A DNA stretch of 57,848 nt from a virus, in the IMG/VR virus record IMGVR_UViG_3300042543_000614, positions 1 through 57,848 of that record; one strand, 5' to 3'. This document shows positions 1,996 to 57,848 of this stretch, one piece after another (position 1 is the first letter of the stretch; every line of letters starts with the position of its first letter). The notes below the pieces were generated by a model that was given only the letters and a program-made list of their open reading frames with translations, was not told the origin of the DNA and searched no databases. The position numbers were made by a program, and so were the translations under genes.

Positions 1996-4777
1996 TCAGG
2001 GGAGAGAAGCGCGCCCGCAGGGCATCCAGGCGGGCCTCGAGGGCGGAATCCATCAGAGCCTTCACGCTGTTCTTCATGCTGACGAGCTTCTCGAACACCT
2101 TCCGATCACCGCCGGCATCCGGGTGGTGCTTCATGGCCAGCTTGCGGAAGGCCTTGTCCACGTCGGCTTTGGTGGCCTTTTTCGGATCTAGGCCGAAGGC
2201 CACCCAGGGGCGGAAGTTCTTCAGGATGTCCACCCCGTTGATCACGCTGCCGCCGTCCTTGAGACCGCGCTCATCCCTTGGGACCGAGACGAACCGGCGG
2301 TAGAGCTGGCGCCACTCCTCCTCGGCGTTCTTGCCCTTGAGGGTGCGGGGCTTGTCACCCACCACCGACTGCTGAAAGTTCTTGTTGGCCATCAGGGCGG
2401 CCGTGCTCTTCACGTTGAACGACTTGAAAACCGCCGATCGCATCTCCCTGATGGTCATGGGCTTGGCCGTGCTGGCGGGGCCCTTCCCTTGGCCCTCCGA
2501 TGCCTTCTCACTTCCTCCCCTGCTGGAGGGGGCCTCCTTGGCCCTGGCGTCACCGCTGACAGCAGGGCCGCCTTCCTTGCCAGCCGCCAGGGCGAGGATC
2601 CGCGTCATCTTCTGCTGATTGGCGCCGCTGGGGGTCTTGCGGCAGACCTTGCCCATCGCAATGCAGCTGGCGCCGCAGCTGTAGCCCGTGCGGCACTGCC
2701 GCTTCACGGCATCGATGCGCTGCGTGGCCATCGCCTCACGGATCAGCCGCTGGATTCGCTGCTCACGGCTGTCGGTGCGGCGCTTCATGCTGCCGAAGGT
2801 GTTGGTGCCCACGGCCTTCATCAGCTCATCCAATGCGGGGGCCATCTTCGCGATCTGCTCCTTGTTGGGCCACAGGGGGCTCTCACCGCCCAGGCCGGAG
2901 AGGTAGGTGTTCTCCTGCCCCTTGGTCTTCAGCTTGTGCTGCACGTACCGCTCGAAGGTGCGGGCAAACACCTCACGGCCTGAGGTCCAATAGTTCCACT
3001 GGCCTTTGCTTTTCTGTGGGGTGATGCCGTATTCCCGCAGCCCTTCCCTGAGGGTCTGGGAATAGTCGGTGTCCTTGATGGCATTGCGGACCCCATCCAT
3101 GGCTTTCCAGACAGGATCATCCTCTTGGCTGGCGTGGCCTCTGGTGCCATCCCAGAACCTGGGGCTGGTCTGCTCGCTCAGGTAGGTGTCGCCGGTCTTC
3201 GCGAAAAATTGGCCCCTCGGAGATCGCGCCCCGATGTAGTCATCGAGGGCGTGCCCCCATTCATGGGCCAGGGTGCCAACACCGTTCTTCCGGGTGATGT
3301 TGATCACCTTTGTCCCCGGCTCGTAGTGTGCCGCGGCCCGACCCTTACCTCTGGCTCCGAAGGCCAGGCCCAGCTGGCCGTCCAGCGAGATGGCCCGATC
3401 TGGGAGCCCCGTCACGTCCGCCAGGTCGACCAGGGCCTCGGCGGTCTTGCGCAGGTGGTGGGCCCTTTCTTCATCGGTGACGCTGTTGCCGAACTGCAGG
3501 CCCCGCATTCCCATTCGGTTGGCGAGCACCGTGGTGGACCCGGCCGGCGTGTCATCGACACCCAGGGCGCGGCCGCCAGTGCGGACCGCCCTCTTCACGT
3601 AGAGGTCGGCGGCGTTGATGGTCGGCCCGCCGCGCTGCACCCCGGTGACCTTGTCAATCGAGGCCCCTCCCAGGATCTCCTGTGTGGCGTTGCGCATCAC
3701 ATCCGCCAGCTCAGCGGTGCTCTTCCCGTCGTTGGCCTTTTTGAGGCGGACCCCCAGGGTGTTGATCTGCCCGGTAACTGACGTTTTGGAGTAGCTGCCT
3801 CTGCTGGCCTTGTTGGTGAGATCCACCAAGGAGTTGGCCAGGGGGTTGAACGGGTCAGCGGTGTTCTTGGTCCGATCACCCCTGATGGCGGCGATCCGGT
3901 CGACGGTGGCCCGGGAGATTTCCGCCAGCATGTCGCGGGGGTCGGCATCGTCCCGCCGCTTGTCGATGATGCCCTTCACCTCCTGCAGGTGGTTGTAGTA
4001 GAGCTCCCGCATCTCGGCCGGGGATTTCTTGCCCGGATAGCTGCCCCGTTCGTAGGCCGCAAACGCCTTGTCGGTGTAGGGCTGGGCCGGGAACGACTTC
4101 AGCGCCAAGTGGCCCGCCAGGCGGGTGAGGTAGTTGGCGTTGGTGAGGCCTTCCGTCAGGTCGAGCGGCTCGGCTTTGAGCAGCTTGTCTCGGGTGACCA
4201 TGGCCGCGGCCGTGCCATCGGCTTCTGCTTCCGCCAGTGTTCGCCACTGGTTGGCCTTGTGCCGAGCGGAGCCCTTCAGGTCTTCCCCGACATTCCCCAC
4301 AGTTGACGGCCTGGCGAACTCGTAGTCCGGATCCGCTGCCTTGGCGGCCCGATCGGCCTCACCCCGGGGGGTGCCGGCCGGCGCCATGGGGCGATCGCCG
4401 GCGCTTGGGCGTGGCTGGCGGGCCTGTGCGGCGGCCTTGGCCGCGGCCTCTGCCGCCTGTGCCGCTTGGGCCTTCTCTGCCGCGGCCTGCTGGCGTACCC
4501 CCCGCAGCTGGCCCGCTTTCTCCCCCCGGCGGGTGGCGATACCCTCGGCAAGCTCACCGGCCTCCTTGGCCTTCACCGGGGCAATGCCGCGCTGGCTGGA
4601 GGCGCCCCCGGCCGCCAGGGCCAGCAGGCGCTTGAGGCGTTCCTTCCCGATCGCCGACCCCGGGCTGGTGCGGCATTCCTTCCGCAGGGAGATGCAGGTG
4701 CTCCCGCAGCTGTAGCCCGTGCGGCACTGCCGTTTGAGGGCGTCAATTCGCTGCTGCAGGCTGTCAGCCAGGTTCAT
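1988..4777 (-). CDS. Polyvalent protein: two Cys motifs, LPD1-like metalloprotease domain and C-terminal J-domain
   Basis: A 929-aa multidomain protein between portal and gpF. Visible in order: a four-Cys motif C-x5-C-x3-C-x6-C at residues 18-35 (QCRTGYSCG); an Ala/Lys/Gln-rich helical linker at about 70-150; an LPD1-type domain (large polyvalent protein-associated domain 1) at about 421-516, with GMRGLQFGN, LGLAFGARGKG and a zincin-like HEWGH at 505-509; a second copy of the four-Cys motif at 695-712; and a J-domain at about 860-915 with the HPD tripeptide at 885-887. LPD1 domains are known in polyvalent proteins thought to enter the host with DNA. A protein delivered with the genome that recruits host DnaK through the J-domain is inference. 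The start overlaps the portal stop by 4 bases (ATGA). Confidence 0.8.
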   Translation of the reverse strand: MNLADSLQQRIDALKRQCRTGYSCGSTCISLRKECRTSPGSAIGKERLKRLLALAAGGASSQRGIAPVKAKEAGELAEGIATRRGEKAGQLRGVRQQAAAEKAQAAQAAEAAAKAAAQARQPRPSAGDRPMAPAGTPRGEADRAAKAADPDYEFARPSTVGNVGEDLKGSARHKANQWRTLAEAEADGTAAAMVTRDKLLKAEPLDLTEGLTNANYLTRLAGHLALKSFPAQPYTDKAFAAYERGSYPGKKSPAEMRELYYNHLQEVKGIIDKRRDDADPRDMLAEISRATVDRIAAIRGDRTKNTADPFNPLANSLVDLTNKASRGSYSKTSVTGQINTLGVRLKKANDGKSTAELADVMRNATQEILGGASIDKVTGVQRGGPTINAADLYVKRAVRTGGRALGVDDTPAGSTTVLANRMGMRGLQFGNSVTDEERAHHLRKTAEALVDLADVTGLPDRAISLDGQLGLAFGARGKGRAAAHYEPGTKVINITRKNGVGTLAHEWGHALDDYIGARSPRGQFFAKTGDTYLSEQTSPRFWDGTRGHASQEDDPVWKAMDGVRNAIKDTDYSQTLREGLREYGITPQKSKGQWNYWTSGREVFARTFERYVQHKLKTKGQENTYLSGLGGESPLWPNKEQIAKMAPALDELMKAVGTNTFGSMKRRTDSREQRIQRLIREAMATQRIDAVKRQCRTGYSCGASCIAMGKVCRKTPSGANQQKMTRILALAAGKEGGPAVSGDARAKEAPSSRGGSEKASEGQGKGPASTAKPMTIREMRSAVFKSFNVKSTAALMANKNFQQSVVGDKPRTLKGKNAEEEWRQLYRRFVSVPRDERGLKDGGSVINGVDILKNFRPWVAFGLDPKKATKADVDKAFRKLAMKHHPDAGGDRKVFEKLVSMKNSVKALMDSALEARLDALRARFSPLNG

Positions 4778-6911: not shown

Positions 6912-7910
6912 GTGAGCTCGCCGCTGGACGCGATGATGAAGGCCTACGGGCGGCTGCCGATCCCCACCAGGGAGGAGCAGGTGCTGCTGGGCCGGAAGAT
7001 TCGCGCCTGGCTGGACTGGGAGCCATCGCTCGAGGAGCAACAGCAGGGCATCACCGAACCCCCGAAGCGGCTGCGGCGGGCTGGGGAGCGGGCGCGGGAG
7101 CAGTTGATCAGCAGAAACATGCTGCTGGTGGCGGACCAGGCCCGCTCATTTTCGGTGAGCTCCACGCCGGCGCTGGAGCTGCAGGATCTGATCCAGGAGG
7201 GTGCGATCGGGCTATGCAGGGCGGCGGAGCTGTTTGATCCGGCCCTGGGCTATGCCTTCTCCACCTATGCGGTGCTGTGGATCCGGCAAAGCATGACGCG
7301 GCTGGTACATGGCTCTGGAGCCATCCATATCCCCACGAAACGATCCCAGGCGATGCACGGGCTGCGGAAGTGGTGCGAGGCCTTCAGTGCGGAAGAGGGG
7401 AGGCCTCCCACCGATGCCGAGCAACTGGCAGCAGGCATCACCGGCGTGCAGCGGCCCGGTGATCTGGTAATCCTGCGCCAGGCGGCGGCCGTCTACCAGC
7501 TGCGCTCTCTCGATGTGGTGATGGGTGATGAGGATGGCGACACCTGGTTGAGCACCGTGGCGGCCCCTGCAGATGATCCGCAGCCAACCGCCAGCAACAG
7601 GGAGTTGGATCAGGTACTGCAGATGCTGCAGCCCTGGCCGGTGCTGCAGGAGGTGATGGAACGGCGGCTGGCAGGCCAGACATTCTGGGAGATCAGCCTG
7701 GCAATGGGAATGAGCGAGCGGGCGGCGATTCGCCGCGGACGACAGGCGCTGGCGATGGCGCAGCTGTTGGCGCGCAACAGCGCCATGGGGGATGAGCTGC
7801 AGGAGGAGGAGGTGGATTCTGATGAACCGCCAGCGGAAACTGCGCCGGCGCCGCCGCAGCATGTGGTGTACGTGCAGCCGTCCCTCCTGCCAGAGCCTGT
7901 ACCCGCCTAG
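6912..7910 (+). CDS. RNA polymerase sigma-70 family factor
   Basis: A 332-aa phage-encoded sigma factor. Region 1.2 is seen near residues 8-35 (RLPIPTREEQVLLG). Region 2 covers about 58-150, including LQDLIQEGAIGLCRAAELFD and GYAFSTYAVLWIRQSMTR, the core-binding and -10-recognition helices. A region-3-like stretch follows, and a region-4-like HTH lies near 250-285 (TFWEISLAMGMSERAAIRRG). It looks most like cyanobacterial primary-type sigma factors, though region 4 is divergent. The start is GTG at 6912 with a weak ribosome site; an ATG at 6933 is an alternative. It heads a plus-strand cassette with a LexA-like wHTH and two NblA-like genes, and could redirect host polymerase to phage promoters. 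Confidence 0.85.
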   Translation: MSSPLDAMMKAYGRLPIPTREEQVLLGRKIRAWLDWEPSLEEQQQGITEPPKRLRRAGERAREQLISRNMLLVADQARSFSVSSTPALELQDLIQEGAIGLCRAAELFDPALGYAFSTYAVLWIRQSMTRLVHGSGAIHIPTKRSQAMHGLRKWCEAFSAEEGRPPTDAEQLAAGITGVQRPGDLVILRQAAAVYQLRSLDVVMGDEDGDTWLSTVAAPADDPQPTASNRELDQVLQMLQPWPVLQEVMERRLAGQTFWEISLAMGMSERAAIRRGRQALAMAQLLARNSAMGDELQEEEVDSDEPPAETAPAPPQHVVYVQPSLLPEPVPA

Positions 7911-12222: not shown

Positions 12223-13083
12223 ATGTCTTTCCATTCCGGCGAGTCTGTGCGCAAGATGTCTGCTGACAGGCTGAAAATCCTGCTACAGACAGGGTTTCGC
12301 TGGTCGGAAGCGGCAGAAATCAGTGGGGTGTCGCTTTGGGTGCTCCGGACCTGGTGGCAGCGAACAGGCATACATCTCTGCGATCCGATCGAGCGGGCCC
12401 AGGCAGAGCGATTGATACAAGCGAACTACCGGCAATGCTCACCTCGGCTGTTTGACGGTTTGGTGGTCTGCAGCAAATGCCGCGGCCTGCTGAAGCCGCC
12501 GGATCAGAGGGATGTCTGTGGCCGCCCGCACCGCTGGGCCTGCACTCGCTGCCGCACCGCTGGCCGCCGGGAGTGGGTATCAGCCGCGGCCATCAAACGG
12601 GCTGTGTTCGAGGCTCTGCAGCGGCGGCTGCCGGAGATGGCGCGGCTGTGTGAGCACCGCACGGGGTTTCAACGGGAGCGCGAGCAGCGGTGGCTGGAGC
12701 AGCTGGAGCAGTTCCAGGCGATGGCCCAGCAGTTGCATGAGGCTGGCTTACCGCGCCTGGCAATTTTGGCGCGGGCGGCCCAGGTGCAGCTGGCGGAGGA
12801 TGAGCTGGGAGATCCGCCCTACCTCGATCGACACAACTGGGGCGAGACGTTCAGCAGCTGGGGGGCGTGGGAAGGTGCCAGTTCACACCAGTGGCGGATG
12901 GTGACCGCCTTCTTCTGCCGGAAGGTCGTCTGGGATGGCGAGCGGCTGCAGGTCGTCCTTTTCGGCCGGCGGTTTGTCGATCCACTGCTGATGAATGGCA
13001 ACGAGGACCTCGTTGATCAGCCCCTCTGGCGGCCGCCCGTTCATCCGTTGGCGTTCAGCCATCCTGCTCATCGGGTGGGTTGA
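12223..13083 (+). CDS. HTH plus zinc-ribbon protein resembling a serine recombinase without its catalytic domain
   Basis: A 286-aa protein of uncertain function. Residues 12-50 form an HTH (LQTGFRWSEAAEISGVSLWV). Residues 75-125 contain a CxxC...CxxC ribbon (VVCSKCRGLLKPP and WACTRCRTAGR, Cys at 83/86 and 107/110) followed by VSAAAIKRAVFEAL, the arrangement of the recombinase zinc beta-ribbon region in large serine recombinases. A coiled-coil-like stretch rich in Glu and Gln follows (about 145-185). The N-terminal resolvase domain with its catalytic Ser is absent, so it should not recombine DNA alone. It diverges from the ParB-like gene and its end overlaps a convergent small ORF. Confidence 0.6.
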   Translation: MSFHSGESVRKMSADRLKILLQTGFRWSEAAEISGVSLWVLRTWWQRTGIHLCDPIERAQAERLIQANYRQCSPRLFDGLVVCSKCRGLLKPPDQRDVCGRPHRWACTRCRTAGRREWVSAAAIKRAVFEALQRRLPEMARLCEHRTGFQREREQRWLEQLEQFQAMAQQLHEAGLPRLAILARAAQVQLAEDELGDPPYLDRHNWGETFSSWGAWEGASSHQWRMVTAFFCRKVVWDGERLQVVLFGRRFVDPLLMNGNEDLVDQPLWRPPVHPLAFSHPAHRVG

Positions 13084-13301
13084 CGACGCAGGCAGGACAG
13101 TTTGGCAAACCTCAGCTGGGGACGAGGGGGTGAGTATGGAGGGCCTACTTCATCAACGATCAGGAAAGTCGCAGCCGGCTGTGGTTCAGCGAAAGAGGCA
13201 ATCTTTGCCAGCTCCTGTTTAAGTAATCCCATGGTGCGCACCCCCGCTCCGCGGCGGCAAGCAATGAACAATGCTCGGCGGCAAAGTTCACTTGTGATCA
13301 T
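13068..13301 (-). CDS. Hypothetical small basic protein
   Basis: A 77-aa unknown starting at ATG 13301. It overlaps the preceding tiny ORF by 14 bases and the convergent HTH/zinc-ribbon gene by 16 bases. The N-terminal half is helical (MGLLKQELAKIASFAE) and the tail is basic and proline-rich. Supported only by its place at the end of a run of overlapping small genes; coding status is uncertain. Confidence 0.4.
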   Translation of the reverse strand: MITSELCRRALFIACRRGAGVRTMGLLKQELAKIASFAEPQPAATFLIVDEVGPPYSPPRPQLRFAKLSCLRRQPTR

Positions 13302-13359
13302 CGCTTGAGTTTCGGATTTCATTCACGGTGGGGGATAGGGGTGTGGTTGGGGTGGTCAT
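13288..13359 (-). CDS. 23-aa ORF with MTTPTxPLSP N-terminus
   Basis: A very short ORF whose first ten codons (MTTPTTPLSP) nearly duplicate those of the 91-aa gene starting at 13968. Its ATG overlaps the stop of the membrane microprotein (ATGA). It may be the 5' remnant of a duplicated gene, or only a translational coupler. Confidence 0.35.
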   Translation of the reverse strand: MTTPTTPLSPTVNEIRNSSDDHK

Positions 13360-13445
13360 GGTTGAACTCCGTGGGGATATAGTTGATGGACTATTTCGTA
13401 AAGGAAATAACAAATCCAAAACACAGTGAAGGCGTCTCGTTTCAT
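13356..13445 (-). CDS. 29-aa single-span membrane microprotein
   Basis: Starts at ATG 13445 directly behind a strong GGAGGTGGGG ribosome site supplied by the repeated junction module, and overlaps the upstream stop (TGATG). After a short basic N-terminus the core AFTVFWICYFLYEIV is hydrophobic enough for one membrane segment. No family is recognised. The strong ribosome site and tight overlaps on both sides favour real translation. Confidence 0.5.
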   Translation of the reverse strand: MKRDAFTVFWICYFLYEIVHQLYPHGVQP

Positions 13446-13642
13446 CACCCCACCTCCGCACCGGGCACCGGCAGCTCGATGCAGCGCCCGCAAGCATCCC
13501 CGCCCGGAGTGGGGAACACGTCGCCCCGGCTGCCCCATCTCCAGCCGCGCTCTACTCGCGTCCACCATCCGCCAGTGCATGCGTGGGCCTTGGTGCCGAG
13601 CGGGTAGTCACGCCACGGGCGATCGACAGTTAGGAGACTCAC
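13445..13642 (-). CDS. Hypothetical 65-aa protein ending in the shared LPVPGAEVG tail
   Basis: Starts at GTG 13642, 6-7 bases after GGAGGTGGGG of junction copy B. The body has the compact aromatic/glycine pattern ACTGGWWTRVERGWRW followed by GDVFPTPGGDACGRC, a small beta-rich domain type often seen as short accessory phage proteins; I cannot name it. It ends with the LPVPGAEVG tail that also closes the 223-aa gene at 14165. Frame and start are well supported by the ribosome site. Confidence 0.55.
   Translation of the reverse strand: MSLLTVDRPWRDYPLGTKAHACTGGWWTRVERGWRWGSRGDVFPTPGGDACGRCIELPVPGAEVG
13447..13474 (-). repeat. Junction repeat copy A (gene tail, Shine-Dalgarno, start)
   Basis: 28-base copy of a module that occurs three times in 750 bases. 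On the minus strand it encodes the C-terminal LPVPGAEVG of the upstream gene, contains GGAGGTGGGG, and leads into TGATG, where the stop and next start overlap. This copy differs from copy C at one base and is identical to copy B. Confidence 0.85.
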
Positions 13643-13643
13643 G

Positions 13644-13671
13644 ACCCCACCTCCGCACCGGGCACCGGCAG
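13644..13671 (-). repeat. Junction repeat copy B
   Basis: Identical 28-base core to copy A. Here the LPVPGAEVG frame is not attached to an intact gene: it continues the frame of the 91-aa gene at 13693 past that gene's TGA, and its own stop overlaps the GTG start of the 65-aa gene. Confidence 0.85.
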
Positions 13672-13692
13672 GGCGTGGGCGGAGTGGGTGGG

Positions 13693-13968
13693 TCACGACC
13701 GCCCCTCCGCTCGCAGCTCGGCGGCGAGAGCGTTGTGGTGGCCGCAGCCTCCAGTGCATGAGACGCTCGGCGTGAATCCCGTGGGCCAGCCGGTGGATGG
13801 CTGCACTCGATTGGCGGGATGTCCACACCACCCGCCATAGCGGCTACCGCAACTGGATCGAATCAGGTAATCGCAAACAGGGAATCCGCAGGTCGGAACC
13901 GTGTTTGGATTGAGGCCATCGCTGACCATGGGCGCGGCGGGGGATAGGGGCGGGGTTGGGGTGGTCAT
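13693..13968 (-). CDS. Cysteine-rich hypothetical protein, possibly prematurely terminated
   Basis: A 91-aa unknown starting MTTPTPPLSP, with six cysteines spread through the middle and end (VPTCGFPVCDY, GSRYGGWCGHP, SCTGGCGHH), suggesting metal binding or disulfides. Start ATG 13968 overlaps the upstream stop (ATGA). After the TGA at 13695-13693 the same frame stays open for 17 codons and runs into the shared LPVPGAEVG tail, as if a stop had recently arisen near the end of a longer gene. Confidence 0.6.
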   Translation of the reverse strand: MTTPTPPLSPAAPMVSDGLNPNTVPTCGFPVCDYLIRSSCGSRYGGWCGHPANRVQPSTGWPTGFTPSVSCTGGCGHHNALAAELRAEGRS

Positions 13969-14165
13969 AGTATGTCGCTGTAATAATCGGCCCATCGCTC
14001 ATCCCAGTATTCATCATTTCGCTCTTTACAGGCAGGGCAAAGAGTGACGATGTTTTCGGCGGGATTCTCGTATTGGGTGCGTTGGTGATAGGTCAAGGCT
14101 CCAAATCTGCCGCAATAATCGCAGCGGCTAATCAGACATCGGAACCACTTTGCAAGACGATTCAT
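13965..14165 (-). CDS. Small zinc-finger protein
   Basis: A 66-aa protein with two CxxC knuckles (RCDYCGRFGALTYHQRT and TLCPACKERND) about 28 residues apart, a zinc-binding layout reminiscent of the scaffold of HNH-type proteins, though no complete nuclease motif is present. Start ATG 14165 lies right after the GGAGGTGGGG of junction copy C and overlaps the upstream stop (TGATG). Confidence 0.65.
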   Translation of the reverse strand: MNRLAKWFRCLISRCDYCGRFGALTYHQRTQYENPAENIVTLCPACKERNDEYWDERWADYYSDIL

Positions 14166-14836
14166 CACCCCACCTCCGCGCCGGGCACCGGCAGGGCGTC
14201 ACCAGACCAGCTCACCACGGCATCAATCAACCGGCCGGCCAGCTGGATGTTTCCGACTGTCAGGCCACCAGATGAGCGAGCAACACACAGGATGCGCTCG
14301 AACATTCCGCGCAGTTCCGGCAACCGCTCCGTCATGGGCACGGGCGACGACTGGGCGTTGATGGCGGCAGGGTGAGCCAGGATCGCCTCAGCTAGTGCAG
14401 CAGCGCCTAGCCGGCGGTGTGTGCCGTCCACCTCGCGGATGATGGCGGCCAATGTGTCCGCGCTCATGGGTGCGGGCACGGGCGCCGGCTGGGGGGTGGC
14501 GGAAAGGTCAATAACGGCCTGGGCTATGGCAGAAAAACGGTCGTAGTTGGTTTTACAGAAGTTGAATTGCCACAAGCAACGCAGCTTTTCTTCACTCGGC
14601 CTCACTGCCTCGGTTCGGGGCTGGGGGGTGGCGCACCTTTGCTGGATGGCGCGGGCAAAGGCAATCAGCTGGTGATCCCATGCCTCCCAGCAGCCCTCCT
14701 TTACGACGGTGCCATCTGGATAGGATCGCTCCCCCTCGAATCGGTCCAAGTCGCAATCATCGGCTAGGTCTAACACCTCCTCATCACTCAGCCCCGCCAC
14801 CTCCGGCTCAGGCTGATCGGCGCGGTAATCAGTCAT
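14165..14836 (-). CDS. Hypothetical 223-aa protein with acidic N-terminus and LPVPGAEVG tail
   Basis: Unknown function. Residues 10-40 are strongly acidic (LSDEEVLDLADDCDLDRF). The middle resembles a conserved phage accessory segment (KEGCWEAWDHQLIAFARAIQ) that often sits in front of variable tails, and the C-terminal 90 residues are helical. ATG 14836 is preceded by GGAG at -10. It overlaps the 28-aa microprotein upstream and ends in junction copy C. Confidence 0.7.
   Translation of the reverse strand: MTDYRADQPEPEVAGLSDEEVLDLADDCDLDRFEGERSYPDGTVVKEGCWEAWDHQLIAFARAIQQRCATPQPRTEAVRPSEEKLRCLWQFNFCKTNYDRFSAIAQAVIDLSATPQPAPVPAPMSADTLAAIIREVDGTHRRLGAAALAEAILAHPAAINAQSSPVPMTERLPELRGMFERILCVARSSGGLTVGNIQLAGRLIDAVVSWSGDALPVPGAEVG
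14167..14194 (-). repeat. Junction repeat copy C
   Basis: Third copy of the 28-base module, one base different from A and B (a silent change in the Gly codon of LPVPGAEVG). Here the tail belongs to an intact 223-aa gene and the start to the zinc-finger gene, so this copy may be closest to the original arrangement. Confidence 0.85.
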
Positions 14837-14919: not shown

Positions 14920-15140
14920 GGCCGCATCCCCTCCCTGAGCACCTGCCCCAGCTCACCGGCGACGCTGCGGGCGACGGCGGTGCAGGTCTGGCACGGCTCA
15001 GGGCACCGGCCCGGCAGGGGGCAGGCGGCCAGGGATAACCGGGTGGAGGGTGTTGGTGGGCGCTGGGCCTGATCGCTGGTGGCGGGCGCGGTGGCAATGC
15101 GGGCCATGGCCTGCTGGGTGGGGGTCGTGAGGGTGATCAT
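14916..15140 (-). CDS. Hypothetical 74-aa protein with CxxC pairs
   Basis: Unknown. Residues 39-53 carry four cysteines (ACPLPGRCPEPCQTC), which could bind a metal, followed by a short helix. Flanked by the Pol-X-like gene upstream (40-base gap) and the membrane microprotein downstream (4-base overlap). Confidence 0.6.
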   Translation of the reverse strand: MITLTTPTQQAMARIATAPATSDQAQRPPTPSTRLSLAACPLPGRCPEPCQTCTAVARSVAGELGQVLREGMRP

Positions 15141-15179: not shown

Positions 15180-15698
15180 TCAGGCCACCTCCCGGTCACG
15201 AGGGTCCACCCAACCCAGGCCGATCAGGCGAAACAGCTCTGGCTCGGTGCGCACTGGCACCACCGACCCATCGGCGCGGCGCAGCAGGCCGCCTTCGGAG
15301 TGGTAGCCAGCCCGCACCCAGGCCCGGGCCAGCACCTGGTGGCACCAGTCAGCTGAGCCGGTGCGGATCGCCCGCTGCAGGCCGTAGCCGTCGGGATGGA
15401 CCATGAACAGATCAAGCCGGACCCCCTCGGGGAGGATCCGCTGCGTGTATTTGCAGGGCAGCTCCCCACGCACCTTCTCCCACTGGTTCACCACCGTGGC
15501 AATGCCGCTGCAGAACAGCGGTGAGGCGTCGTAGGGCTTGGGGACACACACGATCTCGATGTCGCCGATCGTGGGCCGCTGCCGGCGGATGCTGCCGGCG
15601 AGACTGATCACCTCGCAGTGCGGGTCGAGCTGCTCCATCACACCTACGGCGATGGCCTCGGCTTGGGCCAGGGGGATGCGGTCGGTGGTGGTGCTCAT
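15180..15698 (-). CDS. Pol-beta/Pol-X-like nucleotidyltransferase
   Basis: A 172-aa nucleotidyltransferase-fold protein. The helix-turn G-S signature is AGSIRRQRPTIGDIEIV (about residues 34-50), with Asp and Glu at the metal-binding D-x-E positions; a third acidic strand is VRLDLFMV (about 92-99). This matches the palm core of family X polymerases, without the 8-kDa and fingers domains. Such phage proteins may act in gap filling or nucleotide transfer; the substrate is unknown. It overlaps the dATP/dGTP hydrolase gene by 4 bases. Confidence 0.75.
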   Translation of the reverse strand: MSTTTDRIPLAQAEAIAVGVMEQLDPHCEVISLAGSIRRQRPTIGDIEIVCVPKPYDASPLFCSGIATVVNQWEKVRGELPCKYTQRILPEGVRLDLFMVHPDGYGLQRAIRTGSADWCHQVLARAWVRAGYHSEGGLLRRADGSVVPVRTEPELFRLIGLGWVDPRDREVA

Positions 15699-21400: not shown

Positions 21401-22384
21401 ATGGACGCTCTCCCGCCTTCTGGCCCGCCAGCGGAGCCGGCGCAGGAAACGCCTGCACCGGCTGATCCGCTCACCCAGACGGTTCTTGACATTGCCGATC
21501 GTCTTGCCGCGCTGGAAGAACACACGGCCGTCAAGCACGAGGCGGTGCGCGAGGCCTTTGCTGGTCTCCGTGCTGAGCTGCGCAAAGGTCTGGACTCTCA
21601 AGGCAAGATTACGGATGACCCGGGCCGCCGGCTGGTGGGGTTTCTGGGCTATCAGCCCAGCACCCAGCAGCAGGTTGAGCTGTTCACCGCCTACGCGGCC
21701 TGGCATGCCACCAATCCCAAGCTGGTAGAGAACCGCCAGGCCGAGTACACAACAAAGAAAGGCCAGTTGGTGTCCTACGGCTATGCCGATCTGGCTGGCG
21801 TGATCGCCACGGCTCAGACCGCTGCGCCATTTGGTCTCTCTGCTTTCACCAGGCAGGAGTTTGACGACAACGGCCATCCCATCGTGACCGGCTACCTGGT
21901 GCACACCAGCGGTGGGGCAACCAGCACGGGCCCAGTTCCACTGTTCACGGCCGATAGCGACCGCCCGGGTCAGGCACATGCCAGTGGCCTCACAACCTGC
22001 CGGCGCCTAGCGCTGCAGATGGCCATCGGCCTGGCCGCTGAGCGCGAAGACGATTTCAACTTGAGCAATGAAACCTCAGCTGCCACCCGGGCAGCACCAC
22101 GGTCAGCAGCACCGGCTCGCACCGTTGGCGAGCGACCGATTGCAAACCCACCGCGCCGTGTTGCAGACCCAGAACGAGATCAGCGCAACACAGCTGCCAC
22201 CACTCGGCCAGCGCCCGTCACGCGCCAGGGGCCCCCACCCGGCTGGCTGAGCAAGGAAGAGCGCGACGCGCTTGAGCAGGAGCTCATGGATCCCGCCATC
22301 ACCCCGCAGCGATTTGCTGAGATCGAGGAGAAGCTGCTCGCCGCCAAACAGTCGGTCAGCACCTCCGGAGGTGCTGGGCAATGA
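21401..22384 (+). CDS. ERF-family single-strand annealing recombinase
   Basis: About 327 aa. The ERF core spans about residues 75-220: VELFTAYAAWHATNPKLVEN, then YGYADLAGVIATAQTAAPFG, the VTGYLVHTSGG strand, and the closing LTTCRRLALQMAIGLAAERE with its acidic end EDD. Proline-rich linker and helical tail follow. ERF proteins anneal complementary single strands for phage recombination and circularisation. ATG 21401 is taken as start; the frame is open to 21329. A matching exonuclease is not obvious, though a PD-(D/E)XK-like gene lies 3 kb downstream. Confidence 0.8.
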   Translation: MDALPPSGPPAEPAQETPAPADPLTQTVLDIADRLAALEEHTAVKHEAVREAFAGLRAELRKGLDSQGKITDDPGRRLVGFLGYQPSTQQQVELFTAYAAWHATNPKLVENRQAEYTTKKGQLVSYGYADLAGVIATAQTAAPFGLSAFTRQEFDDNGHPIVTGYLVHTSGGATSTGPVPLFTADSDRPGQAHASGLTTCRRLALQMAIGLAAEREDDFNLSNETSAATRAAPRSAAPARTVGERPIANPPRRVADPERDQRNTAATTRPAPVTRQGPPPGWLSKEERDALEQELMDPAITPQRFAEIEEKLLAAKQSVSTSGGAGQ

Positions 22385-40891: not shown

Positions 40892-41355
40892 CAGGCGATG
40901 AAGATGGAGCCGGTGTCTGGCAGCTGGCCGACCAGCTCAGTGGTGAGGCGGCGACGGGGCGCGTCACCACGGATGGCATCCAGCGGTGATGTGAGGGTGA
41001 CCTTGATGTACTCGCGCCGCTCGATCGGGCCCAGCCGCCAGAGATGGCGCGAGAGGAGGCGGACATCGGTGCCGGCGGCCACGTCGCACAGCACCACATC
41101 GGCGCGGAGCTTCCAGCGGTTGGCGCGGGCCTCGGCCAGCACATTCAGCGCCAGCTGGTTGCGGTTCATCGCAAGCCGGCCCTCGGAGCGATCACCACCG
41201 CGGGCACCGGCCGAATCGGAAATTCGGAAGCCCATCGAGGTATGGGGCCGGCCGTCGTAGGTGCGCGTCTGCCCGGTGAAGAGGTTCTGCCAGGCGTAGC
41301 CGGGCACTGGCGCGCCATTGGCCTGGAAGGAGATGTAGGCGCAGATGGCGATCAT
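40891..41355 (-). CDS. Minor tail protein (gpL-like position)
   Basis: A 154-aa protein with mixed strands (RWKLRADVVLCDVAAGTDVR, ERREYIKVTLTSPLDAIRGD) between tape measure and the NlpC gene, the place of lambda gpL/gpM or DUF1833-type tail-tip proteins. The call rests on position and size. Confidence 0.65.
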   Translation of the reverse strand: MIAICAYISFQANGAPVPGYAWQNLFTGQTRTYDGRPHTSMGFRISDSAGARGGDRSEGRLAMNRNQLALNVLAEARANRWKLRADVVLCDVAAGTDVRLLSRHLWRLGPIERREYIKVTLTSPLDAIRGDAPRRRLTTELVGQLPDTGSIFIA

Positions 41356-44300
41356 CAGCGCATCCCCACGCTGCTTTGAATGGAGGGGTTGTTGCGGAAG
41401 TCGTTGTAGACCGCTTCGCGGCTGGCTGCAGCGGCTGCGGCTGCGGCCTGGTGCACCTGCTCCACCGTGGCGTATTCCACGCCGTTGATCACCTGCGTTT
41501 CCACCTTGAGCCGTAGCGACCTGGAGGGGCCCATGGCGCTGGGGGGAGCGCCACCAGGCCCAGACCCTGCCATGGCGCCGCCGCTAGGGGATGACTTGAG
41601 GAAGGGAATCGGCGGCAAGCCAGACCGGCCGCCAGCACTCTGGGTGGGCCCGGCGGCCATGAAGGGGACTGGCGGCGCGCCAGACCGGCCGCCAGCACTC
41701 TGGGTGGGCCCGGCGGCCATGAAGGGGACTGGCGGCGCGCCAGACCGGCCGCCAGCACTCTGGGTGGGCCCGGCGGCCATGAAGGGGATGCCGAGCGAAT
41801 CGCCACCGTCCGCCACCTGAGCACCGCCACCTGGGGTGCGCTGGAACGGCACACCCAGCGCCTTGGTGAGGGCTCGGTTGCTGTAGACCTTCCCGCCGGC
41901 CTTGTTGAACCGCACGATCTCCGCATTCTTCTCGCCCACCAGGTAGTCGAGCCCGTACTGGATCTCCCCCCCACCTGCGAAACCGGGGGTGAAGGAGAGG
42001 TTGGGGCTGCCCAGGTTGAGCATGGGACCAGCGGCAGACCAGTCAAACCCCCCAAAAGCTGCTGCGCTGTTGAACGCGACATCCAGGTTGCCGAGGCCAG
42101 CGAAGCCGCTGATCAGGCTGGGGATTTTGGTGGCCAAGCTCCCCCACACGTTTGCGCTGTCGCCCACGGCAGCAGCTCCGGATGCACCGGCCGCAGACAG
42201 CAACGCCGCACCAGCGTTCATCAGCTGCAATGCAGCGCCCTGGTGGGCGCTTGCAGCGTTCGTGTGCGATGCCGCGGCCATCTCCAGTGCTCTGCCCGGG
42301 ATGTCGATCCCGGTGAACGTTTTCACGATCCCGCCCTGCAGCTGGGATAGCAGCGGGTTGAGGAGAGAGTCGAGCGTGGCCTGCATCAGCGACTGCCCCG
42401 CTTGCGCCAGCGCGCTGCTCACCGCCTGCCTCACATCACCACCAGTGAGCAGTGCCTGCACGGCGCCGGAAATGGAGCCGCTGATGCTGCCGCTCACCGC
42501 GTCGCCGGCGGAGATGGCCAGGCGGCCCTGGGGAGTCTGCATCACCTCGGCAGTGAGTTGGGCCTTTGTTCGCTCGTAGGCCAGCTGTGCTCGCTCTGCC
42601 AGCTGCTGCTCGGTGAGGTCTTCCTGCTTCACGCTGAAGAAGTCGTCCAAATCCTTCAGTGCCTGAGTGAGGTCTTCCAGCTGCTTGCCCAGCCGGGTTT
42701 CGGCAGAATCCACGTCGTTCAGGCTCTGCTGCAGCGCTTCCGCCTGGTTGGCGGTGCTGGGCGCCACAGCGCCCCCAACGGCGGCAACTGTGGTGGCAAC
42801 TGAGCCAGCAGGGAGGGCGGCCGCGGCCCGGGCCTGGCCCATGCCGGTGAACGGCTGCACGCCCAGCGGGATGGCTGCTCCAGGGGCCACGCCAGGGGGT
42901 GGGGCCACCGTGGAAAACGCATCTATGCGCTGGCTATAAGGCAACTGCCCTGAAGGGCGAAGGATCGAGGCTGAAGGGGCACCGACACTGGAACCAGCGG
43001 CCTGGCCCTGCACCCTCCCCGTAACGAGAAGGTCAGCGCTGCGGCGGGCGGCTGCCGTTTCTGCATTGCGCTGCAGCGCCCCATTCGTTCCAGGGCTATT
43101 GATGTCAACACTGTTATGTGCGCCAAACGTGCGGCCTGAACCATCAAAACGGCCCAGCACCTGCCCTCCAACTACGTGCTGTCCGACCTTTACGATTGCG
43201 GCCATGTGGCTATAGGTAGCTTCTAGTTTGTTGCCCAGGTCGTCAATGAACTCAATTACTGTGTAGTTTCCATTGTTACCTGCTCTGCTTATTTCGGTCA
43301 CCACGCCATTGTGGTAGCTGTGCATTTCATTGTTTGGTCCTACTGGCATGTCCGCGCCGTTCTGGCCGGAAGCATCTAGCCGGCCACTGATGGAGCCCGG
43401 AAGCCGTGCAACACCTCCCAGCGATGGCACGCTGCTGGCCCCTGCCAGTCGTGGGGCGATTTCATCCTTCATCTGGGTCAGCCTGAGCCGACCCAGCTCT
43501 GCCGTCAGCCGCGCGCGCTGCAGGGCGATGTCCACCTTGTCCCGCTCCATCTGCAGCTTTTGGATCCGCAGCTCGCTCTCCTCTTTCTTGTGCTGCACCT
43601 CCAGCTGTTTCTGCGCCAGCTGGTGCTCGCGAGCCATCTGCCCCTCCTTGGCGTCGAACAGCCGCTGCTGCACCTCCGCCGCTGATTCCATCCCGCTCAC
43701 CCCGGCCGCGGCCGCAGCGATCTGGGCCTCGATCACCGACGCGGTGCCGCCGCCACTGCGGGCGCGGTCTTGCAGCTCCTGCACTTCCGCGAGGCGCTCG
43801 GCGGCCTGCACCGCCGCCTTTTCGCGGGTCATGGACAGATCGGCCTGGGCCTTCTCCAGCCGGCCCTGGCGCTCGAGGAGGGTGTTCTGACGGTTGATCG
43901 CGTCGCTCTGGTCTTCCAACTCTCGCTTCTTGGCGTTCTCCTTGTTGACGATCTCGTCGAGCTTGTTCGAGATGTCTTGCTCCGCACCGCTGATCTGGGC
44001 CAGGAGCAACTGCTGCTCACGGGTGTACTGGGCTTGCTGGCCCTGAATGTCGAGCTGCTGCTCCTGGAGGCCCAGTCGCTGGGCATCCAGAGCAATGATG
44101 GTGCCCAGCTGGCCTTCGGCCTCAAAAGCCAGCTGCACCTGCCGCCGGCTGCCCTCCACCTTGGCGTTGATGCGGGTCTGCTCGGCAGCATTGATGCTGA
44201 GCAGCTCTTGGTTCTTGCCCCACTCGGCGCTGTAGAGGGGTACGTTTTTCTGCACGCGCAGCAAGGCGTCGCGCTCTTTCTCCGCACGCACCTGTTCGGC

Positions 44301-46565
44301 CTGAGCTTCAGCCAGCTGAATCTTGAGCTGCTCCTGCTGGATCTTGATCTGCTTTTCCTGGATGAGCATCTGCCGCTGCTGCAGCTCCCGTTCGGTCTGG
44401 AGAATCCCCCGCCGTTCGGCGATAGCCTCTCGTTCCTGCCTGAGCTTCAGGTCAGCCAGGCGAGCCTCTGCAGCGGCTTTGGCCTCCGGGCTTGCAGCCA
44501 CCTGCGCGCCCAGCTCATAACCACGGGCCTCCAGGGCGCGGCGGGCTCCGGCAACAGAGCTCATGGCTTCCGCCACCTCCCGCTGCTTGTTCATCAGGGT
44601 GAGGCCCTGCTCCAGCGCCTTGATTTCGTTCTGGTAGGCCTTCTGCTTGATCTCTGACCATTCCTTGGAGATGTTCAAAGCCCGGATTGCTCCAGAGCCA
44701 AGCCTCTGTTCTCTGGCCTCGATCCGCTCTAGAACATCAGCTGGCAGCTTGAGGCTGCGCAGCTCTACCGGCTCGCTGAGGTTGGTTTGCCGGTTGAAGT
44801 TCTCTCTGAAGCTGAGCTGGGCTTCCTGAATTTGCTTTTCTGATGCACCGCTCGCCATCATTTGGGCGCGCATCGTAAACAAACGGAAGTTCAGAACGCT
44901 TTGCGCCCACTTCTTGTTCCAGTTGTCGATTGCTTTGCCGGCGCCTTCCGCGCCTGCTATGAGGTTGTCAAAGAACGAGTTGACGCCATCGGCATCTGCA
45001 TCGGCACTGGCATTAAACAACGCCTTGATTGGGGTGATTGCTCCGCTAATGAGATTTCCTATGTTTTCCCAACCTTTGGCAATCAGTTCAACAAACCTTG
45101 CAATCGTTACAAGAACAGGCTGCAGCACAAAACCCAGCACTGCGGTTGCCACGCCTACTACATCCATGATCACCCGACCCACCGATGAAGCGATAGCACC
45201 TATAGATGTGAGAACTGAAATAACGGGGCCAAACACCTTGATAATTGGCCCAACAGCCTCGGCGATGCTCTTGAAGAACCCACTAAAGCTGCCCTGCAGA
45301 TTCTTAAAGGTGACCAGGATTGTCTGCATCATCCTTGCCGTGTCGCGCTCCAGCGGCTGACCAGCTTCAGATGAGATCGCCTGGTTCACGTCATCAAAGT
45401 TGCTCTTGACGTTTTCCAAGCTCAGCGCCAGCACTTTTTGCCCTTCGTAGAGCTTCTCCAACTTCGTCATCAGAAAGTCGTAGTAAGTGCCCTTGGCCTG
45501 CTGCTGGCGCACGTCTTCGTTAGAGATGCCTAGCTTTTGGGCCAACATCGCGTCAGGGCCAATATTTCCCATGAGCAGGGCGTTCGCCTCCTGCCGGAGT
45601 TGAAAAGTGGGGATATTAAGTGTGTTCATGCCGGCGGCCAGCCTGGTGGCCAACTTGGCGGAATTTTCCATGGTGCCCTTTTCTCCCAGGGCACTCACGT
45701 TCTGGAGGATGATGTTGAATCCGTCGTAGATTTCGCTGGCGGTGGCGCCGCTGATGTTGGCCACCTCTTTCTGGATGCCCTGGTATTCCTTCAAGATCGC
45801 GCCGCGCACGATCTGCATCTGGCGGGCAGTACCCTCCACCAGCTTCCCGTCTGGCCCGAGGATCGCAAAGCTCTGCGCCGCAAAGATCCCGGCCTCCGCC
45901 ACCTGCTTGTTGAGCCGGCCGGCCTCGGCCGAAAGTTGCTGCAGGGGTGCTATGGCGGCCCTGGCGCCTGTGGCCATAACGCCAAAGATTGCATTCAGCC
46001 CCATGGCAGCCAGGCCTAATTGTCCAAGGCCTGGGATTAAGGCCAAAGCAGCTTTTCCTAAGCCTCCCAATACAGGAGTGGCTGCAGCCGCTGCAGCGCC
46101 AAGTATTGGAATTGATTTAGAAACCAATCCAAACTTTAGAACGGCACCTGTGAGCACTCCCTGGACAGATTCAAATTGCGCCAGCATTGGCAGCAGCTTG
46201 GCTGTCATTGCCGCCATGCCTAGGAGCGTGGCGGCAGCGCCTCCAAATCCATTGCCTCCTGATGCACTGCCAGCCACATTGCCCGCTGCGGCCATGTTCT
46301 GGTTCAGTTGACGAAACGACTCGCCGTTCAGCTCCACGCTGCGGCGCAGTTCCTCAACCGTCCGTGTGAGATCTTCGTAGCCCCGCTTTGTTTCCGGCGG
46401 CGGCGGCGGGACATCGGGAGCGTCGATTTTCACGCCCCGCTTCTCCATGTCGGCGATCACCGCCCGCATGCGCGCCAGGTCGCGCTCCAGCGGCTGCATG
46501 TCGCCGCGTAGGGTCAGCGTGGCTGTGCCCAGGCTGTATTCGCCGCCGCCGCCGCTCTGGGTCAA
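41355..46565 (-). CDS. Tape measure protein with M23-like domain
   Basis: A 1736-aa tail-length ruler. The N-terminal 150 residues are helical, then hydrophobic segments (LGMAAMTAKLLPMLAQFE; GALGQLGLAAMGLNAIFG-type) and several hundred residues of long coiled coil (about 620-1000) with repeating Glu/Gln/Arg. At about 1090-1200 lies a LytM/M23-type fold (MHSYHNGVVTEISRAGN, YSHMAAIVKVGQHVVGG, GAHNSVDIN) with an altered metal motif. Three 20-residue repeats precede the C-terminus. The frame begins at TTG 46565; ATG 46499 is another possibility. Genes on both sides fit siphovirus tail order. Confidence 0.9.
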   Translation of the reverse strand: MTQSGGGGEYSLGTATLTLRGDMQPLERDLARMRAVIADMEKRGVKIDAPDVPPPPPETKRGYEDLTRTVEELRRSVELNGESFRQLNQNMAAAGNVAGSASGGNGFGGAAATLLGMAAMTAKLLPMLAQFESVQGVLTGAVLKFGLVSKSIPILGAAAAAATPVLGGLGKAALALIPGLGQLGLAAMGLNAIFGVMATGARAAIAPLQQLSAEAGRLNKQVAEAGIFAAQSFAILGPDGKLVEGTARQMQIVRGAILKEYQGIQKEVANISGATASEIYDGFNIILQNVSALGEKGTMENSAKLATRLAAGMNTLNIPTFQLRQEANALLMGNIGPDAMLAQKLGISNEDVRQQQAKGTYYDFLMTKLEKLYEGQKVLALSLENVKSNFDDVNQAISSEAGQPLERDTARMMQTILVTFKNLQGSFSGFFKSIAEAVGPIIKVFGPVISVLTSIGAIASSVGRVIMDVVGVATAVLGFVLQPVLVTIARFVELIAKGWENIGNLISGAITPIKALFNASADADADGVNSFFDNLIAGAEGAGKAIDNWNKKWAQSVLNFRLFTMRAQMMASGASEKQIQEAQLSFRENFNRQTNLSEPVELRSLKLPADVLERIEAREQRLGSGAIRALNISKEWSEIKQKAYQNEIKALEQGLTLMNKQREVAEAMSSVAGARRALEARGYELGAQVAASPEAKAAAEARLADLKLRQEREAIAERRGILQTERELQQRQMLIQEKQIKIQQEQLKIQLAEAQAEQVRAEKERDALLRVQKNVPLYSAEWGKNQELLSINAAEQTRINAKVEGSRRQVQLAFEAEGQLGTIIALDAQRLGLQEQQLDIQGQQAQYTREQQLLLAQISGAEQDISNKLDEIVNKENAKKRELEDQSDAINRQNTLLERQGRLEKAQADLSMTREKAAVQAAERLAEVQELQDRARSGGGTASVIEAQIAAAAAGVSGMESAAEVQQRLFDAKEGQMAREHQLAQKQLEVQHKKEESELRIQKLQMERDKVDIALQRARLTAELGRLRLTQMKDEIAPRLAGASSVPSLGGVARLPGSISGRLDASGQNGADMPVGPNNEMHSYHNGVVTEISRAGNNGNYTVIEFIDDLGNKLEATYSHMAAIVKVGQHVVGGQVLGRFDGSGRTFGAHNSVDINSPGTNGALQRNAETAAARRSADLLVTGRVQGQAAGSSVGAPSASILRPSGQLPYSQRIDAFSTVAPPPGVAPGAAIPLGVQPFTGMGQARAAAALPAGSVATTVAAVGGAVAPSTANQAEALQQSLNDVDSAETRLGKQLEDLTQALKDLDDFFSVKQEDLTEQQLAERAQLAYERTKAQLTAEVMQTPQGRLAISAGDAVSGSISGSISGAVQALLTGGDVRQAVSSALAQAGQSLMQATLDSLLNPLLSQLQGGIVKTFTGIDIPGRALEMAAASHTNAASAHQGAALQLMNAGAALLSAAGASGAAAVGDSANVWGSLATKIPSLISGFAGLGNLDVAFNSAAAFGGFDWSAAGPMLNLGSPNLSFTPGFAGGGEIQYGLDYLVGEKNAEIVRFNKAGGKVYSNRALTKALGVPFQRTPGGGAQVADGGDSLGIPFMAAGPTQSAGGRSGAPPVPFMAAGPTQSAGGRSGAPPVPFMAAGPTQSAGGRSGLPPIPFLKSSPSGGAMAGSGPGGAPPSAMGPSRSLRLKVETQVINGVEYATVEQVHQAAAAAAAASREAVYNDFRNNPSIQSSVGMR
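41611..41788. repeat. Three tandem 60-bp repeats in the tape-measure gene
   Basis: Two adjacent 60-base units (41641-41700 and 41701-41760) are identical, flanked by further partial copies, so the array covers about three units. Each encodes a 20-residue unit of the type VPFMAAGPTQSAGGRSGAPP. Near identity at the DNA level implies recent slippage or recombination. Confidence 0.9.
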
Positions 46566-48687: not shown

Positions 48688-49704
48688 TCACACTCGCATG
48701 AACAGCCAGCTGGCGCAGCCCGGTGGGTAGACGCTGCACTGCTTGCCGGCGGAGAGCTTGCCGCGGCCGATGAGGCGCCAGCCGTCGCGTTTGGCACCGA
48801 CTGAACGGGCGGCGGCCCACTTGTTGATGGTGTGGGCCTCCAGGCCGAGCAGGTGGGCCAGCTCGGGGCCGGTGATCAGATCGCCGGGCCGGTAGCCGTC
48901 CGGCTGCTGCGCAGACTGCGGAGGCATGGGCGGCCCCGGGGGCGCCTGGTGCTGGCGAGGAGGACGCGGACCAGGGGCCGGCGCCGCCGGCGCGGGTGCG
49001 GGGGGCCGGGGCGGAGCGGCCACGGCTGCCGCCACAGCCTGGCTCCTACGGCTCGGCCGCAGCGTCATGGTGGGGTGCTGCCACACGATTTCCGTCCAGT
49101 CGTTGTGGCAGGCCAACCAGAACAGTCGCAGGCTCAGGCAGTTGTGCAGCTCCGTCAGCTGCTTTCGCTGCCGCCAGAGCTGATCAGCCACAAAGTCATG
49201 CGGCTGCGCAACGGCAGGCACTCCTACCGGTCCACCAGCTGGTCGGACCCTGACATGCAGCTCGGTGCCAATCCGTTCGATGGCCACCATCGGCAGTGTG
49301 GGCGCCTCGGCGCGATCAGCGGCGATCCTGGGGGTGAGGCTCTCCAGGAACCAGCCGTCCATCCACACGGCGAAGGCGGGGCTGATCCAGCGGGCCAGGT
49401 CGACGGCGAGCTGGGGGTGGACCCAGGTGCCCTGCAGGTGCGGGGGGCCGCCCTGAATGATCTGCACCAGATCCGGTTTTCCCGTTGCGGGAATTCCCGC
49501 AACGGCTGCCCCGCAGCCGGTTTGGGCCGCCAGGGCACGGAGATACTCCTGAGTCCGCTCCAGTCGAACGTAGTCGTTGAGGCGCTTGCCGTTGGCCTTG
49601 CACATGGCCGTGGCGTTCACATAGCCGTCGGTCGGCCGGCGCTGAATCTCCACACCATTCCAGGTGCGCGACTCCAGCCCCAGGGGGGTGAGGGTGCTGT
49701 TCAT
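48688..49704 (-). CDS. KilA-N domain DNA-binding protein
   Basis: A 338-aa regulator. Residues 12-120 form a KilA-N domain: TWNGVEIQRRPTDGYVNATA, MCKANGKRLNDYVRLERTQE, GTWVHPQLAVDLARWISPAF and VWMDGWFLESL. A middle segment (about 150-225) is shared with the 91-aa protein at 21037. After a proline-rich linker comes a small C-terminal domain with an HTH-like GPELAHLLGLEAHTINKWAA. KilA-N proteins of phages are often antirepressors or late regulators. It sits among tail genes but has its own leader. Confidence 0.8.
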   Translation of the reverse strand: MNSTLTPLGLESRTWNGVEIQRRPTDGYVNATAMCKANGKRLNDYVRLERTQEYLRALAAQTGCGAAVAGIPATGKPDLVQIIQGGPPHLQGTWVHPQLAVDLARWISPAFAVWMDGWFLESLTPRIAADRAEAPTLPMVAIERIGTELHVRVRPAGGPVGVPAVAQPHDFVADQLWRQRKQLTELHNCLSLRLFWLACHNDWTEIVWQHPTMTLRPSRRSQAVAAAVAAPPRPPAPAPAAPAPGPRPPRQHQAPPGPPMPPQSAQQPDGYRPGDLITGPELAHLLGLEAHTINKWAAARSVGAKRDGWRLIGRGKLSAGKQCSVYPPGCASWLFMRV

Positions 49705-57493: not shown

Positions 57494-57848
57494 CGGGCCA
57501 GGGTGGTGCATTGCATCCGGAGGGCATCGATCCGGACCTCCAGGATGTTGGCAGCGGCATCACGGCGCCGGCTGCCACCAAGGCGTTGCCGCGGCCCGAC
57601 GGCCAGGCCGGCGGCTTCCTTTCCCCGTACCGGAGCAATGCCCCGCTGGGCGCGGCACTCCTTCGGCAGAGAGATGCAGGCGTTCCCGCAGCTGTAGCCC
57701 GTGCGGCACTGCCGCTTGAGAGCGTCGATTCGCTCCTGCAGGCTGTCGGCCCGGGGCCGCTTGCGCAGACCCAGGGCCTCCAGCTCCTGCTCTACAGCGG
57801 CAAACACGTCCCGCTCCAGCTCCTGCCGCACCTTCGTTTCAGATTCGC
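57490..57848 (-). CDS. Cys-motif protein, partial at window edge
   Basis: At least 113 aa from GTG 57831; the frame stays open to the edge, so the true start may lie outside (or past base 1 if the molecule is circular). It carries the same motif as the 929-aa polyvalent protein: RIDALKRQCRTGYSCGNACI with C-x5-C-x3-C-x6-C, preceded by the same DSLQERIDALK lead-in. The rest is helical with a second RIDALRMQC near the C-terminus, which may be a decayed repeat. Function unknown; possibly a virion protein that shares a partner with the polyvalent protein. Confidence 0.65.
   Translation of the reverse strand, partial: ESETKVRQELERDVFAAVEQELEALGLRKRPRADSLQERIDALKRQCRTGYSCGNACISLPKECRAQRGIAPVRGKEAAGLAVGPRQRLGGSRRRDAAANILEVRIDALRMQCTTLAR

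Follow-up and report, generated by a model that had tools for sequence, protein, structure and literature searches.

A small-gene array with three copies of a coding joint

The DNA analysed here is the IMG/VR virus record IMGVR_UViG_3300042543_000614 over its whole length of 57,848 bases (the window). On its minus strand lies an array of small, overlapping genes in which a 28-nucleotide (nt) sequence occurs three times, at 13447-13474 (copy 1), 13644-13671 (copy 2) and 14167-14194 (copy 3). We have termed this element joint J4, one of several at which, as argued below, phages appear to swap genes and protein segments by homology-driven exchange. Copy 3 differs by one change (GGC for GGT) from the other two, which are identical to each other, so that the initial annotation was right in reporting three 28-base copies at most one base apart. 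The 24-nt core, CCGGTGCCCGGYGCGGAGGTGGGG (13448-13471, 13645-13668 and 14168-14191), is matched exactly three times in the window when up to three mismatches are allowed, and not once in 100 dinucleotide shuffles.

In copy 3 (joint at 14163-14197, GCCCTGCCGGTGCCCGGCGCGGAGGTGGGGTGATG) and copy 1 (13443-13477), the joint comprises the last codons of the upstream gene (ALPVPGAEVG* of gene 1 and ELPVPGAEVG* of gene 4, respectively), the Shine-Dalgarno (SD) sequence GGAGGTG and the start of the following gene (gene 2 and gene 5), with stop and start codons overlapping as TGATG. An LPVPGAEVG gene end running into an overlapping next start had been described for all three copies; this applies to copies 1 and 3 and not to copy 2 (joint at 13640-13674). 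Copy 2 is a variant ending GGGGTCGTGAGTC and is not the end of an intact gene, because no usable start lies between its LPVPGAEVGS* frame and the preceding TGA, at which the 13693-13968 gene stops; the frame that crosses it (VTHPLRPRPAGARCGGGVVSLLTV...) continues into the next gene without a stop. Every copy of the 28-mer contains GGAGGTGGGG directly ahead of a start codon. The anatomy of J4 fits translational coupling, as we infer, of the genes it connects. The J4 copies of the window have no site resembling a promoter or terminator, and the window matched no Rfam family. The core shows nothing unusual in its RNA folding (z -0.5 to -1.0), and a predicted SD-sequestering hairpin in J4 is no better than those of shuffled sequences.

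All genes of the array are on the minus strand. Gene 1 (14165-14836; 223 amino acids) consists of several segments with proline-rich linkers between them, one of which (ATPQPAPV, 14477-14503) is a diverged J2-type linker with seven mismatches; its protein has no match among isolated phages, and its segments match different phages (14490-14353, contig L067; 14382-14171, contigs L026 and L018). Gene 2 (13965-14165; 66 amino acids) is HNH/zinc-finger-like (phrog_28125, E = 1e-9; PF01844, E = 0.004, below the cut-off), and the same gene is preceded by other upstream genes in L009 and L017. Gene 3 (13693-13968; 91 amino acids) has a variable body (83% DNA match to L025) between a gene-start joint, J5, and a gene-end joint, J6. 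Gene 4 (13445-13696) specifies either 65 amino acids from a GTG at 13642 or 83 from a GTG at 13696, the longer version being an in-frame fusion with the start of a gene denoted here MTHPFRPRP. Gene 5 (13356-13445; 29 amino acids; MKRDAFTVFWICYFLYEIVHQLYPHGVQP) belongs to a family that sits behind unrelated upstream genes in L004 and L011, with a ratio of nonsynonymous to synonymous substitution rates (dN/dS) of 0.16 against L004. Gene 6 (13288-13359; 23 amino acids; MTTPTTPLSPTVNEIRNSSDDHK) again has J5 at its start.

J5 and J6 were not mentioned in the initial annotation. The former is a second repeated module, ATGACCACCCCAACC..CCCCTATCCCCC, marking the starts of gene 3 (13933-13968; ATGACCACCCCAACCCCGCCCCTATCCCCCGCCGCG, a version of the gene-start sequence MTTPTPPLSPAA) and gene 6 (13324-13359; MTTPTTPLSPTV). 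The latter, at 13693-13728, encodes LAAELRAEGRS* at the end of gene 3 with an embedded SD, and differs by five mismatches from the consensus CTCGCCGCCGAGCTGCGGCAGGAGGGGCGGGCATGA.

The core stands between unrelated genes in other viral contigs

We searched IMG/VR (2.9 million viral contigs), first with a protein-degenerate pattern and second with a 19-nt core; after the removal of chance matches, including L028, L030, L033 and L034, 43 core instances were left. They represent 31 distinct contexts, in which 21 unrelated upstream sequences are combined with 20 unrelated downstream sequences: eight upstream sequences are each found with at least two downstream partners, and seven downstream sequences with at least two upstream partners. 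Contigs L011 and L013 are 100% identical over the 400 bp left of the joint and 32% identical to the right of it, past TGATG. Identity drops at the core in the same way in the pairs L014/L017, L017/L026 and L022/L025, and the mirror pairs L015/L023 and L014/L025 have 97% identity on the right and about 20% on the left. The position of the exchange varies between pairs (core+11, +21, +25 and +29).

The proposal of the initial annotation, that genes are shuffled at the 28-mer, is upheld by these contexts and by the matched pairs, which switch from about 100% to background identity at the core. The search for the core in related phage contigs, which had been suggested as a check, returned different genes on both sides of it, and not the same three genes with unrelated junction sequences. 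Small genes are exchanged, as had been supposed; the exchange is not confined to tiny open reading frames (ORFs), since joints also occur between domains and at gene starts.

Within the terminase lineage of the window (84-100% identity), quite different arrays occupy the same position, and joints also occur in contigs with a different terminase or without a match to the terminase family of the window. The 19-mer core has 28 matches in the genome collection, all by chance in unrelated coding frames, and hence the module was not detected in any GTDB species genome; nor was a DNA match found among isolated phages.

A family of joints in genes and between protein domains

By sequence, the core belongs to a set of six or more near-identical joint sequences, which comprises the gene-end joints J4 and J6, the gene-start joint J5 and the interdomain linkers J1-J3. 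An unbiased search for 16-mers bordered left and right by many different sequences returned the core first, followed by a QPEPE linker, an MTTPTPLSP start, an AELRQEG end and an AIEPVP linker. Among the joints are the gene-start MTTPTPPLSPAA, the second gene-end AAELRQEGRA* and the interdomain linkers LAQPEPEG and RPTIEPVPV; protein segments are therefore exchanged as well as genes. With flanks called unrelated by alignment identity, the joint regions (62.7 kb) contain 101 16-mers that have five or more unrelated flanks on each side (maximum 15). No such 16-mer occurs in the remaining 233 kb of these contigs (maximum 4), in the terminase and portal genes of the relatives (maximum 3) or in lambda, HK97 and HK620 (maximum 2; three genomes only). 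Pattern scans with the start module and the second end module matched only contigs that also bear the core.

The joints usually follow one another in this order: variable start, LAQPEPEG, segment, RPTIEPVPV, AERLPGPEDCDAEG.CWW...HWLPHHALPVPGAEVG* TGATG, small gene, and then MTTPTPPLSPAAQ, a variable part, LALAAELRQEGRA* ATG and the next gene. Of 14 words of at least 6 bp common to different joint types, 12 agree in reading phase; the cases are partly dependent on one another, and GC-rich coding DNA is periodic in itself. Hybrid joints are extant: in L009, a J2 linker (...RPAIE) runs straight into the PVPGAEVG* of J4, and in L026, a J1xJ4 hybrid, J4 is fused in frame to the following segment (PVPGAEVPPMPVPGD). 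In gp55 of phage S-CBWM1 (L097, 2363-2713), an IAECGGPC..CDCGLL segment is fused to a CWW..HWLP segment, the two being separate genes in L016; this difference is an older example of the same segment shuffling.

Signs of exchange at the joints

The ends of segments shared between contigs lie within 5 bp of one of the six joints in 31% of cases, compared with 8.2% expected and at most 14% in 300 random placements. The array of the window is itself a mosaic of segments of different contigs, which change at joints: 14490-14353 (L067), 14382-14171 (L026), 14192-13932 (L009), 13956-13699 (L025), 13732-13667 (L017/L011) and 13676-13040 (L067). From 14199 on, neighbouring tiles overlap at joints. Moreover, the core is identical over 21 nt in 81 of the 210 pairs of unrelated upstream genes, whereas codon choice alone predicts 0.04% and so cannot explain the identity. 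The swapped genes have dN/dS values of 0.09-0.64, i.e., they are under purifying selection and therefore encode proteins.

The 11-bp word CACGCCCTGCC occurs in the start of the MTHPFRPRP gene (L017/L027) and in the J4 flank of other genes. At copy 2 of the window, the MTHPFRPRP start continues into the J4 flank at this very word, outside the LPVPGAEVG frame, so that copy 2 looks like the product of an off-target exchange at CACGCCCTGCC. The tiling, the shared words, the hybrids and copy 2 all point to homology-driven exchange over 10-35 bp.

Candidate recombinases and the probable host

The window encodes an Erf-like single-strand annealing protein of 327 amino acids (21401-22384, plus strand; phrog_2324, E = 5e-7), a candidate recombinase. 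Its close homologues are restricted to its own lineage; we have therefore dropped Erf as one enzyme common to the set, and our proposal as to the enzyme is kept general. Among 25 joint-bearing records, six have an Erf-type match (L017 and L018 a different Erf-type, E = 1e-26) and five others (L007, L011, L013, L015 and L032) a weak RecT-type match, one of these over the cut-off. A serine recombinase occurs in six of the 25 and a tyrosine recombinase over the cut-off in three others; the window has the catalytic domain of neither. Beside the shuffled array, the ORF at 12223-13083 (plus strand) specifies a recombinase zinc-ribbon (phrog_95, E = 3e-5; PF13408, E = 1.5e-4, below the cut-off) without a serine-recombinase catalytic domain; some relatives have a 447-amino-acid serine recombinase located elsewhere.

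Terminase matches among isolated phages are mostly to cyanophages, the best being a Cylindrospermopsis phage (29%), and an HWLPHHALPLP segment occurs in the Synechococcus phages S-CBWM1 and B23, where the joint is absent. A cyanobacterial host is therefore likely. The phages of this group are probably temperate.

Proposed homology-driven exchange and its alternatives

We propose, with a probability of about 0.8, that the standard joints let phages swap genes and protein segments by homology-driven exchange, for which Erf/RecT-like annealases and a cyanobacterial host are the presumed enzymes and setting. On an encounter of two phage or prophage DNAs, annealases would carry out homologous exchange inside the joint blocks of 20-40 bp in the early small-gene region, by which a whole gene or protein segment is replaced. 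As the joint contributes a ribosome site, the overlapping start and a matching reading phase in addition to the final codons, the product of the swap should usually still be translated.

Several observations weigh against this proposal. What the sequences show is the products of recombination rather than the process, and the GGAGGTG part of J4 needs conservation for translation in any case. About two thirds of the segment ends lie away from the six defined joints, partly because more joint types exist. The count of core contexts is conditional, the contexts having been found via the core; J1, J2, J5 and J6 played no part in the choice of contigs. When the terminase relatives are taken alone (11 loci), the variable region has few multi-context words, near the terminase/portal control. 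As for the enzyme, the Erf match of the window is weak, with PF04404 below the cut-off, and 14 of the 25 records are without an Erf- or RecT-type match, though many of them are fragments.

The joints could instead be conserved for expression only, as carriers of a strong SD, stop/start coupling and perhaps a useful C-terminal peptide, new genes brought in by illegitimate recombination surviving only on such sequence. Indeed, GGAGGTG is placed for initiation, the downstream start being almost always 23-27 nt away from the first base of the core, and in these arrays, other small genes end in different tails that have an SD embedded in them (RQEV, RQEG). However, the 14 nt ahead of the SD (CCGGTGCCCGGTGC) are unneeded for initiation and yet nearly invariant at synonymous sites across unrelated genes, interdomain linkers without a start codon show the same behaviour, and donor segments overlap inside the joint; we consider conservation for expression alone unlikely. 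An att-like role of the core, as the site of a phage or host site-specific recombinase in the manner of an integron, would account for the different cassettes to the left and right of one short conserved site, and several of the phages encode integrases. It is improbable given that no enzyme is common to the set, that the exchange positions vary, that there are several joint sequences and hybrids, with joints inside coding sequence, and that the core does not fold unusually.

All relatives are metagenome contigs, and short assembly k-mers are about as long as these repeats; short-read assemblers might thus have fused phages at a shared repeat of 28-36 bp. Such an artefact is very improbable: identical junctions are present in contigs that come from different metagenomes (window/L005, L006/L008, L007/L021, L015/L019, L020/L024 and L029/L031/L035), which argues against misassembly, and mis-joining cannot make a shared tail within many different genes. 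Tandem duplication of one gene or junction in this genome, now decaying, which the initial annotation had named as an alternative, is barely credible; three copies do lie inside 0.75 kb, but their flanks are unrelated, and each neighbouring segment matches another phage contig.

Homology-driven exchange at the joints bears on the old question whether phage mosaicism arises by illegitimate joining and selection or by homology at boundary sequences. Here, the boundary sequences are dense, easily seen and of several types, and they operate on genes as well as on domains with the reading phase kept, so that the boundary model becomes directly testable; they are natural connectors uniting SD, stop/start overlap and linker. 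More tentatively, selection for recombinability as such may keep the joints standard and matched in phase, as a shared connector set by which different phage lineages of the same hosts trade genes and protein segments, an idea that we rate as possible rather than probable. If true, it would amount to a population-level gene-assembly system in phages, and to combinatorial assembly of early host-takeover or counter-defence proteins.

Comparison with known systems

For lambdoid phages, recombination at short conserved boundary (linker) sequences has been proposed (work cited in PMC3029335), such sequences being seldom visible at mosaic borders (PMC3029335). Rad52-like phage recombinases (Redbeta, RecT, Erf) perform relaxed homologous recombination at short or diverged homology in lambdoid phages (PMC3945230). 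The likeness is that the mosaic pattern changes close to gene borders, at short stretches of shared sequence: in several genomes, one short sequence stands at the switch points between unrelated flanks, and switch points are denser in the shared sequence than elsewhere in the DNA. The present case differs in its 21 x 20 unrelated contexts, in the coexistence of several joint types and in the joints between protein domains. As far as its sequences tell, the system works like the proposed boundary-sequence recombination, of which it is an unusually dense case; categorical novelty would need selection for recombinability. No description of this joint system was found in the literature searched.

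T4-type phages have PeSLs (promoter plus early stem-loop; Arbiol 2010, Comeau 2014), which, as described in PMC4503421, are likewise short repeated cassettes between small early genes that mediate gene shuffling. In that description they are promoter/terminator motifs, whereas J4 is coding, with a stop/start overlap and no intergenic space; identity with PeSLs is ruled out by the overlap of the genes, the coding nature of the joints and the lack of a promoter or terminator match at the J4 copies. The SAS/ESAS repeats of cluster K mycobacteriophages also precede the starts of unrelated small genes and are likely tied to translation initiation (PMC3203893). SAS lies immediately upstream of start codons, ESAS has inverted repeats, and neither is described as a shared end of the upstream protein, whereas J4 provides the last codons of the upstream gene and is a switch point in matched pairs. 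Identity with SAS/ESAS (GGGATAGGAGCCC-like sequence) is excluded, as the J4 core differs and is coding.

The lambdoid Ea22/DUF551 early proteins, with conserved N-terminal and swapped C-terminal segments, resemble the present ones in being early-region proteins that are mosaic in segments (PMC10834534). A relation to DUF551, prompted by the look of HWLPHHALPLP, was rejected: a profile of GRCWW..HWLPHHALPVP against the HK620 DUF551 protein gave 4% probability, and there is no Pfam DUF551 match. In integrons, a site-specific integrase acts on folded attC sites. The cassette array with exchangeable small ORFs is alike; the several joint types, the coding joints and the variable exchange positions are different, and identity is ruled out, there being no common integron-type integrase and no unusual fold of the site.

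Other features of the window

Upstream of gene 1, a further module near a gene end (ELGQVLRE; 14931-14954, minus strand) was identified by sequence comparison, and a further gene-start module, MITLTTPTQQAMARIAT (15090-15140, minus strand), is shared with many contigs at 85-99% DNA identity. The ORF at 15180-15698 (minus strand), immediately upstream of the shuffled array, encodes a DNA polymerase beta/X-like thumb protein (PF14791, E = 5e-7) that is conserved in relatives. A sigma-70 region 2 protein (6933-7910, plus strand; PF04542, E = 3e-12) is divergent from the portal and terminase genes. A repeat with a cysteine motif (RIDALKRQCRTGYSCG..) and 79-90% DNA identity occurs at 2638-2723, 4667-4772 and 57649-57754, near both ends of the record and in different ORFs. 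A tandem repeat with a unit of about 60 bp (85-91% between copies) is located at 41601-41815, near the 3' end of the large ORF at 41355-46499 (minus strand). Finally, a perfect 24-bp palindrome at 49482-49505, within a KilA-N ORF, is possibly an operator.
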